In this document: positions 22,801 through 25,800 of the stretch, in pieces
How positions within the stretch are numbered: position 1 is the stretch's first letter
Layout of the letters: every line of letters starts with the position of its first letter
Assembly (NCBI GenBank): GCA_963556495.2
Contig: OY747702.1
Coordinates: 56,362,786-56,426,785 of the forward strand
Length of the DNA: 64,000 bases
Reading direction: 5' to 3'
From: Valencia hispanica
Taxonomy: Eukaryota > Chordata > Actinopteri > Cyprinodontiformes > Valenciidae
Notes under the pieces: model-generated
The model's input: the letters and a program-made list of their open reading frames with translations, nothing else
What the model was told of the DNA's origin: nothing
Database searches by the model: none
Program-made: the position numbers and the translations under genes

Positions 22801-25800
22801 GGGCTTCCAGCTCATAAAACCCACGAAAACAGGAGTTCAAAAAATGTTAATACTGTGAAGAAATCACCATTTACCTCTCAGTTTTTGCAGAAAAAAAAGA
22901 AATTAGGATCACATCAAATCAATCAAAATATGGTACTTTCAAAACAATATGTCAATCTTCAATACTTGGTAGGGAATCCATTTGCCATAATCGCTGCCCT
23001 GGCATTGAGTCAATCAGCCGGTGGCATTGAGTCAATCAGCCGGTGGCATTGAGTCTATCAGCCAGGTGGCATTGAGTCTATCAGCCGGTGGCATTGAGTC
23101 TATCAGCCAGGTGGCATTGAGTCTATCAGCCGGTGGCATTGAGTCAATCAGCCAGGTGGCATTGAGTCTATCAGCCAGGTGGCATTGAGTCAATCAGCCA
23201 GGTGGCATTGAGTCTATCAGCCAGGTGGCATTGAGTCTATCAGCCGGTGGCATTGAGTCTATCAGCCAGGTGGCATTGAGTCTATCAGCCGGTGGCATTG
23301 AGTCAATCAGCCAGGTGGCATTGAGTCTATCAGCCAGGTGGCATTGAGTCAATCAGCCAGGTGGCATTGAGTCTATCAGCCGGTGGCATTGAGTCTATCA
23401 GCCGGTGGCATTGAGTCAATCAGCCAGGTGGCATTGAGTCTATCAGCCGGTGGCATTGAGTCTATCAGCCAGGTGGCATTGAGTCTATCAGCCGGTGGCA
23501 TTGAGTCAATCAGCCAGGTGGCATTGAGTCAATCAGCCGGTGGCATTGAGTCAATCAGCCGGTGGCATTGAGTCAATCAGCCGGTGGCATTGAGTCAATC
23601 AGCCAGGTGGCATTGAGTCTATCAGCCGGTGGCATTGAGTCTATCAGCCGGTGGCATTGATTCAATCAGCCGGTGGCATTGAGTCAATCAGCCTGTGGCA
23701 TTGAGTCAATCAGCCGGTGGCATTGAGTCAATCAGCCGGTGGCATTGAGTCAATCAGCCAGGTGGCATTGAGTCTATCAGCCGGTGGCATTGAGTCTATC
23801 AGCCGGTGGCATTGATTCAATCAGCCGGTGGCATTGAGTCAATCAGCCTGTGGCATTGAGTCAATCAGCCGGTGGCATTGAGTCAATCAGCCTGTGGCAT
23901 TGAGTCAATCAGCCTGTGGCATTGAGTCTATCAGCCGGTGGCATTGAGTCAATCAGCCGGTGGCATTGAGTCAATCAGCCGGTGGCATTGAGGCAATCAG
24001 CCTGTAGCATTGCCTGGGAGTTATGGAAGCCCAGATTTCCTTGATGCTTGCTGTCAGCTCTTCTTTGTTTTTGGGTCTGGTGCCCCTCATTTTCCTCTTG
24101 ATAATACCCTATAGATTCTCAATGGGGTTTAGGTCATGAGGGTTGGCTGGCCAATCAAGCCCTGTGATGGCATCATGGGCATCAAACCAGGTTTTGGTGC
24201 TTCTGGTGGTATAGGCAGAGGCCAGGTCCTGCTGGAAGATGAAATCTGCATTTCCAAACAGATCCTCAGCAGAAGGAATCATGAAGTCCTCTAAAACATT
24301 CTGGTAGACTGAAAGCAGAGTGTACCATCACCTGCACCGGACATTGCACCCCAAATCATGACTGACAGTGGATATTTCACACTGGACCTCAAGCAGCTTG
24401 GGTTCTGTTCCACACCCGTCTTCCTTCAAACCCTTGGACCTTGATTCCAGAATGAAAGGCACACTTTACTTTCATCGGAAAAGAGGACCTTGGACCACTG
24501 GCCAACAGTCCAGTCCTTCTCTTTGGCCCAGTTGAGACGCTTCCTACATTGGCTCAGGCTCGGAAATGGTTTGATGCGAGGAACCTTGACAGTTGAAGCT
24601 GTGACTCCCGCCTCATTCCACTCTTTCTGGATCTCTGCCAGATTCATAATTCTTCTCTATTTGAATCTATAATCTATTGAAGTTTAACGTTTTGAATGGA
24701 ATTATGGAAATAAATAAACTTTTCCATGATATTCAAATTTTTTAATAAGGGTCTGTGTGTCAAAAAAAAATCTTAAGTCTTGGCCCAGTCCGGAAACACT
24801 TGATTTTCATCCTTTTGAAGTGTCTTCTATTTTTGGAAATCAAAATATGGTCACCCTGGATAAATGTACTTCAGCAAGCTGCAGAGAAACCTCCTGCCGG
24901 GCATAATTCTGGCTTTTCTGGTCTGAAGTTGTCTTAAAACTGATGGTTTTCGGGTTCTGTCCCAGCTTTTAATCATGATCCGGTTATTTTCTACAGCTGT
25001 GAGGACAGAGCAATTCCAGCAGCTTAACGTTAGCCTACTTTATCCATCTTAGATGTTTGTTTGGGATCACAGTCCTATTTAGACCCACAAATGTGTCCAA
25101 GTGTCACCAATCTGGCCCAAACCGTCACCTTCAGATGATCGAAAATTTATTAGGAAGCTGAAGAACAACCCAGGAACCACCAAGGCTCAACCCTATCAAA
25201 AACTGGGAGAAGCTGGTAGACTGGCACTGCTATCCACAGTGAAGAAGCCAGTTTAACATCAACATGGATTGAGATGTTACCGACCAAGAAAGCTGTACTG
25301 CAGTTTCCTGTTGGCCAAGTCAAATGTTTTCCTGGAGAATGGTTTGTTGGTCAAGGAGACGAAGATTGTTTGGAGTAGCCAAGATGAGCCTTTCGAAACC
25401 CGAGAACAATGGCCAGCTTTCAAGCCTGGCGGTGGTAGTATGATGCTGAGGTTGTGTTTTGCTGTCTATACGATTGACTACCTCCAAATCCTTCAACTGT
25501 ACCTCAGACCAACAGCTAGATGGTTAAACTTGAACATAGTCGAGGGGTTCCAACAGGACATCCAGAATGGTTTGGAATGGTTAAAGCAGGATAAACATCA
25601 TCATCTGGAATGACCCACACCTCACACGTAATGAAGATGTGTAGACCACGTCTAAAATCCAAGTCTGTACACCCAAGAACTGCAGTAGTAATATAAAATT
25701 CACTCAGATTACTCAAATTACTTGAACTGAGTTTGACCTTAGTAACACGTGGGTTGATGCTTAGACGTTTATAAGCCTTTATCATATTTTCTAACCAAAG

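Follow-up and report, generated by a model that had tools for sequence, protein, structure and literature searches.

Minisatellites that derive from transposable elements have been reported for Alu (Jurka and Gentles 2006), for a VNTR family of mouse B1 (Bois 1998) and for LTRs of the mouse (Kelly 1994), as related in excerpts of PMC9659126, PMC6947457 and PMC3389668. Furthermore, miDNA4, a Xenopus MITE of the Tc1/mariner type that contains an internal tandem repeat, has been described by Scalvenzi and Pollet (excerpts of PMC9659126 and PMC12628747). For the birth of minisatellites, the Haber-Louis model, to the extent that it is described in excerpts of PMC6947457 and PMC3389668, states that a motif lying between direct repeats of 5-10 bp is duplicated by slippage or unequal exchange and then grows.

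Here, we describe a minisatellite in a stretch of 64,000 nucleotides from Valencia hispanica (GCA_963556495.2, contig OY747702.1, positions 56,362,786 to 56,426,785), which is called the window in the following. Many copies of its host transposon carry arrays at the place between two 9-mers, mostly in the outer parts of the chromosomes. In the excerpts consulted from the open-access literature on transposon minisatellites, minisatellite birth and chromosome ends, no account of this family was found.

The array and its host element

Using Tandem Repeats Finder on the window, the array was detected with a period of 22, 45.4 copies, 94% matches and a score of 1688 (Table 1). Our own split yielded 45 units of 22 or 23 bp, belonging to seven types, as well as a terminal partial copy, which confirms the extent and the unit number of about 45 given in the initial annotation. 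With a span of 1013 bp and its 22/23-bp units, the array fits the range of minisatellites (units of about 10-100 bp, up to some kilobases). The seven-unit higher-order duplications noted before are real as well: at a lag of seven units, identity was found for 20 of 38 unit pairs, compared to 6.9 expected (none of 2000 shuffles was as high), and two stretches, of 181 bp (23042/23201) and 198 bp (23540/23695), recur exactly at a distance of seven units. That the array arose by chance or as an artefact is ruled out by the Tandem Repeats Finder score and by the arrays found at the same site in other loci. A search of Rfam gave no match at gathering scores.

On the minus strand, the reading frame enters the array from the body side and the ancestral C-terminus resumes on the other side; this part of the initial annotation was recovered by eye. 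Since 22 and 23 are not multiples of three, no single frame is kept throughout. The translation RLIDSMPP, proposed there for the unit, is present as a derived form inside the array; at the body-side edge the unit reads RLIASMP as in the relatives.

Table 1. Features of the array-bearing element (positions refer to the window)
Feature	Position	Strand	Evidence and remarks
Left inverted arm (at the 3' side of the transposase gene)	22645..22746	plus	Inverted pair of 102 nt, 87% complementary; TA at 22651-22652 precedes CAGACCC
Element beyond the array: 3' region and transposase C-terminus	22747..22999	minus	Translation; homologous sequence beside the site in other copies
Minisatellite array	23000..24012	minus	Tandem Repeats Finder, unit split and lag test; ~45 units (22/23 bp), higher-order repeats of 7 units
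Body-side array edge	23982..24012	minus	Unit nearest the ancestral seed (GAGGCAATCAGCCT) and flanking 9-mer copy, here GTAGCATTG
Remnant of the transposase coding sequence with disrupted frames, N-terminal part missing, adjoining the right arm directly	24013..24661	minus	Homologous region of other copies matches PF13358
Right inverted arm	24662..24763	minus	102 nt, 87% complementary to the left arm; outer edge TG, not TA (24756-24757)

Further loci were collected with two queries. For the array query, 55 rows were merged into 37 places, which is a lower bound given that the best 40 of 1893 candidates were scored; 20 of these loci (L039-L058) were fetched, resulting in 21 arrays together with the window. 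For the query with the element body outside the array, the best 40 places of 4463 candidates were scored, and 29 copies besides the window (L010-L038) were fetched whole. All 20 fetched array loci bear arrays at the same site, ranging from 20 to 216 units and from 451 to 4740 bp. Both element flanks are present in 19 of them as well as in the window, and L051 displays the body side only. Four smaller places were read by eye and contain three (L059), ten (L060), nine plus a partial (L061) and twelve units (L062); both flanks are present in three of these, and in L061 the element is found on one side only. An array without the transposon was also sought, and none was seen among the 37 places (best 40 of 1893 candidates), each of which touches the element on at least one side. 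Long arrays that are independent of their founding element, as characteristic of satellite DNA, are thus absent from these places.

The element is a member of the Tc1 family of Tc1/mariner transposons, as seen from its inverted ends, its TA targets and its HTH and DDE_3 domains. Among the 21 array loci including the window, terminal inverted repeats were found at both ends in 14, at one end in six and at none in L045. By eye, TA is present at both outer edges in eight of the nine fetched array loci for which both true ends were found by pattern; the ninth, L039, has TA on one side and CA on the right. Ends without TA are the right ones of L039, L041 and L053 and the left one of L058, where L041, L053 and L058 have one true end found. 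The window element itself has TA on the left and TG on the right. Counterparts of the sequence between the left arm and the array, at least in part, adjoin the site in 19 of the 20 fetched array loci and 28 of the 29 body-found copies.

The domain matches come from other copies, not from the broken copy of the window. Here, L023 matches PF01498 (HTH_Tnp_Tc3_2) with an E-value of 2.5e-15, and pieces of L024, L023 and L037 match PF13358 (DDE_3) with E-values of 3e-8, 9e-8 and 8e-11, respectively. A 156-amino acid piece of L037 matches chain 5cr4_A of the Sleeping Beauty transposase SB100X (E 5.9e-21), and an N-terminal piece gave no match in a sequence search against solved structures. The window copy is devoid of the N-terminal part of the transposase; other copies, for example L023, carry more of it.

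Other repeats and elements are present in the window as well. A second minisatellite of different sequence is located at 41359-41626 (28-bp period, 9.4 copies, 93% matches). Open frames at 1425-5846 and 47300-49449 resemble, by eye, LINE endonuclease and reverse transcriptase, and three open frames at 55328-57397 resemble a BED-finger, hAT-like transposase. The first of these matches zf-BED in Pfam (E 4e-9), the second has no Pfam match at 0.01, the third is located at 56741-57397, and the assignment to hAT was made by eye.

The seed and its array-free copies

On the coding strand, two copies of the 9-mer CAATGCCAC delimit the 22 bp that form the seed of the arrays. The first copy is read as CAA-TGC-CAC (QCH), and the second one, 22 bp further on, as (T)CA-ATG-CCA-C (SMP). 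As the copies stand in different frames, the unit cannot have a length divisible by three, and the frame is disrupted by growth. That the same 9-mer falls in two reading frames is a coincidence of coding. The suggestion of the initial annotation that a coding word became an array holds with respect to the origin from transposase codons, but the amplified word is the interval between the two out-of-frame 9-mers and not one in-frame peptide. Furthermore, the seed contains a hairpin composed of AGGC, a five-base loop and GCCT (AGGC-NATCA-GCCT). For the plus-strand 31-mer its energy is -6.1 kcal/mol, with six of 1000 letter shuffles as low; on the coding strand it is weaker (-2.9 kcal/mol), the shuffle comparison referring to the plus strand only.

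None of the 29 body-found copies has more than two units. A single unit is present in 20 of them, in which the 9-mer GTGGCATTG occurs twice (with at most two changes each) at a distance of 21-23 bp. The only copy with two units is L017, three have lost one unit (L011, L038 and L019, the latter with one more base lost beside it), and L023, L025, L026, L029 and L033 are truncated or altered at the site. The single unit is the common state among the array-free copies and is taken as the ancestral one. The position of the array within a Tc1-like element at the C-terminal codons of the transposase is borne out by the inverted arms and by these copies, which carry the codons once at the same place. 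The earlier reading of the array, its origin and its higher-order structure was right.

The best-kept copy reads QCHRLIASMPRRIEAVIKAKGFPTKY at the site, as do relatives elsewhere. On its coding strand, L024 encodes ITPRQCHRLIASMPRRIEAVIKAKGFPTKY followed by a stop, and several other copies do likewise with few changes. Of 3552 matched protein relatives, 120 were listed; the C-terminal word was found by pattern in 49 of these, and none of the 120 contains at least four of the words SMP, NATG or QCH. One relative, from the eel Synaphobranchus kaupii, shows 77% identity over 74% of the query.

As read from the sequence, the layout of the seed is the arrangement required by the Haber-Louis model. 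The single-copy ancestor with bounding direct repeats is represented by the 20 single-unit copies, and many displayed arrays end on copies of the 9-mer. The reciprocal product, a deletion of one unit between the direct repeats, is present in L011, L038 and L019.

Units and chromosomal location of the arrays

In 19 of the 21 arrays, units of 22 bp are the most frequent, and several arrays have one consensus unit, with C14, in common. Others possess private units: each of the 12 units of L062 carries A11, each of the ten of L060 carries C14, and at least 19 of the 21 of L056 carry G18. The commonest unit forms carry G6 and C22 in L044, C6 in L039 and G18 in L056. L050 and L054 consist mostly of 21-bp units, and seeds of 21 bp also occur in the array-free copies L012 and L021, as would be expected if each array grows from the seed of its own copy. 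Within L050 (2828-3820, plus strand), the 21-bp units keep an open frame of 331 codons, in which a heptapeptide repeat is fused to a transposase remnant; its Pfam matches to MSG (E 1e-11) and DUF1720 (E 2e-7) are taken as compositional matches of the repeat.

One position of the unit stands out. Base 14, which is the first loop base of the hairpin, is non-ancestral at a level of at least 10% in 20 of the 21 arrays (L039-L058 and the window), compared to at most six arrays for any other position; this count includes L050 and L054 with only two and eight units of 22 bp, respectively. Two or more bases occur at this position in 18 of the 21 arrays. In 23 scorable seeds of the body-found copies, read by eye, base 14 is A in 18, C in two, lost in two and G in one. 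The mixture could stem from a mutational hotspot, from exchange among the arrays or from descent from one early array. It counts against independent births from one base unless the site is such a hotspot.

The genome comprises 1.29 Gb in 29 contigs; the contig of the window measures 62.0 Mb, with the array 5.6 Mb from its end. The 24 arrays read (at least nine units) are found 0.1-6.9 Mb from a contig end with a median of 2.0 Mb, versus a median of 13.0 Mb for the 28 array-free copies read (Mann-Whitney p 5e-9; means of 15 versus 21 arms p 5e-7), where the arrays were chosen by similarity to a long array and the array-free copies by similarity to the window body, so that neither sample is a census. 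Within 6.5 Mb of a contig end lie 23 of the 24 arrays versus five of the 28 array-free copies; this line was picked after the data had been seen, and lines at 3, 5, 8 and 10 Mb give p 3e-7, 5e-8, 3e-8 and 2e-6. With 12 unread array places and nine unread body places included, the counts are 35 of 36 versus seven of 38. The copies of the body query fit an even spread, for which 24% are expected within 6.5 Mb (p 0.46). A fairer but smaller check considers body-found copies only and excludes the window. Here, by hand count, more than one unit is present in two of the seven copies read within 6.5 Mb (L017 and L060) and in none of the 23 further in.

The sole place of the array query in a chromosome interior (C11, 15.1 Mb) has three units. 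Units have been lost in interiors, namely in L011 at 18.8 Mb and in L019 at 20.3 Mb, which indicates that slipping is not confined to the chromosome ends. Array length shows no clear trend with the distance from the end (rho -0.34, p 0.08, 26 loci), also when the two shortest arrays are left out (rho -0.22, p 0.30).

In sticklebacks, male crossovers cluster at the chromosome ends, and the same is cited for other teleosts (excerpt of PMC5982825). Furthermore, minisatellites accumulate in (sub)telomeric regions generally (excerpt of PMC6947457). In view of both, crossover-linked repair would be a natural candidate for the growth of the arrays at the ends and thereby for their end bias. Chromosome ends may differ otherwise, for example by a slightly higher G+C content. 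The surroundings of the arrays have 41.5% G+C versus 38.9% around array-free copies (p 0.02), and other tandem repeats occur near arrays in six of 21 loci versus two of 22 (p 0.07); these values are suggestive only, the comparison covering those 22 of the 29 body-found loci that had usable ends, L017 included, and some outer ends of array loci being guessed. Large minisatellites lie within a few kilobases of the array in L040 (20-1892; periods of 11, 55, 275 and 330 bp) and in L041 (6764-9498; periods of 15, 12 to 145 and 57 to 133 bp).

Origin of the arrays and relation to known systems

We consider it probable that one slip-prone coding coincidence was scattered by transposition and grew repeatedly where the distal arms favour repeat growth. 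In such a course of events, a Tc1-family transposon would have spread through the genome, whose transposase gene ends in ...QCHRLIASMPRRIEAVIKAKGFPTKY, the DNA containing two copies of CAATGCCAC at a distance of 22 bp. By slippage or unequal exchange, this pair of 9-mers would then give rise to a second unit or to the loss of the first one, perhaps helped by the hairpin of the seed. Since two units would provide a longer homology, growth would run on, favoured in the distal chromosome arms, where male crossovers cluster in several teleosts. Each array would subsequently be homogenised locally, leading to its own unit and, in the window, to the seven-unit higher-order repeats. For the transposon the array does nothing, and its units of 22 or 23 bp break the frame. 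Independent births of the arrays are not proved, and independent growth is ranked first due to the location pattern and the private units, not due to the tree described below. Our judgement is evenly divided on the more specific proposal that the seed, spread about evenly over the genome, can gain or lose a unit elsewhere as well but expands unchecked into a minisatellite almost exclusively in the distal arms.

A different history, which we regard as doubtful, would start from a single element that gained a short mixed array and was mobilised in trans, the daughter arrays having grown or shrunk afterwards. In a tree of 50 copies, built from sequence outside the array, 37 of 47 inner branches are open, which makes it almost star-shaped. 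Arrays cluster on it beyond chance: they require nine changes, compared to 16.3 when shuffled, and none of 500 shuffles gave so low a number. If only the well-supported (starred) branches are considered, a single change is enough, thus the tree is compatible with one origin. Of 86 variants in the flanks, seven show a difference between copies with and without an array at p <0.02, compared to an expectation of fewer than two; against a single birth, no variant separates both groups after correction for 86 tests, the best one (p 0.0008) being placed at a column that is filled in only ten array-free rows. Likewise, sequence distances are similar within and between the groups (9.1% among array copies, 10.4% among array-free copies and 9.9% between them). 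The joint presence of A, C and T at base 14 in 14 of the 21 arrays would fit a common mixed ancestor, but in the short arrays L060 and L062 all units carry the variant particular to that array. Evidence for movement comes from two pairs of close relatives, L045/L052 and L050/L054, each on one chromosome. Between L050 and L054, two overlapping segments that match at 93% and 89% cover the entire element; both copies are bordered by TA on either side, and their flanks do not match. Together with the common 21-bp units this suggests that an array-bearing element, or a 21-bp seed, has moved; in both pairs the unmatched flanks point to the move of an element to a nearby place, possibly together with its array; for L045 the outer ends were guessed. 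A single birth leaves the end bias of the arrays unexplained, since the element itself has no such bias. Gene conversion between arrays near the chromosome ends, by which few births seeded many loci, would account for nearly all arrays being distal and for the polymorphism at base 14 that they have in common. However, several arrays keep private, nearly fixed variants, and no two loci match on both flanks outside the elements. We therefore consider it unlikely as the main cause and possible as a contributor.

The flanks also bear on a segmental duplication of chromosome ends, in which a single array was copied along with its surroundings. The distal location and the two close pairs would be in line with this. 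In an all-versus-all comparison of the 21 loci over flanks of up to about 1.4 kb, however, no pair matches on both sides, an observation that is weaker where outer ends were guessed, as in L045. The matches found are scattered pieces, as other repeats would give, the longest being 694 bp at 97% on one side only (L040/L048). As a general cause, segmental duplication is mostly refuted by this comparison, and we regard it as very improbable. Hardly credible is a retention of the array because it lengthens or alters the C-terminus of the transposase or serves the element otherwise. The open frame of L050 would be in favour of such a role, but it opens only in mid-gene, the commonest unit length of 22 breaks the frame and the word is not multiplied in any of the 120 relatives listed. 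This role was rejected on the frame-breaking units and the mid-gene frame of L050.

Repeated growth from a scattered seed, the reading preferred here, would make this transposon a natural replicate experiment on the birth of repeats, with one seed placed at many sites. Whether minisatellites near chromosome ends start more often or grow more is hard to tell apart, and a scattered seed separates both. If true, the crowding of minisatellites near the ends would reflect where repeats grow and not where seeds lie. The case also details how the same nine bases in two frames can turn protein code into tandem DNA, probably many times.

Like Sleeping Beauty and other Tc1 transposons, the element has HTH and DDE domains, inverted ends and TA targets; in contrast to them, the copies here are decayed and some bear an array. 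According to the excerpts available, the Alu, B1 and LTR minisatellites have likewise grown from copies of one element family, the LTR case comprising two loci of similar origin. Those are retroelements, whereas here the coding region of a cut-and-paste Tc1 element is concerned. The miDNA4 element, as portrayed in the excerpts, is close in being a Tc1/mariner element with short direct repeats beside an internal repeat that occurs as one monomer or as a variable array. In the view reviewed there, this MITE captured a pre-existing repeat, whereas the unit described here is the element's own transposase code. Minisatellites of the Haber-Louis type (Haber and Louis 1998; known to us through excerpts) have in common with the present arrays that a short direct repeat, here of 9 bp, flanks the motif. 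In contrast to those cases, the repeats here are an out-of-frame coding coincidence within a transposase, and a comparison among numerous copies of one seed is possible genome-wide. The general mechanism is already known, and the coding coincidence together with the replicated, end-biased growth makes this family an unusually clean case of it.
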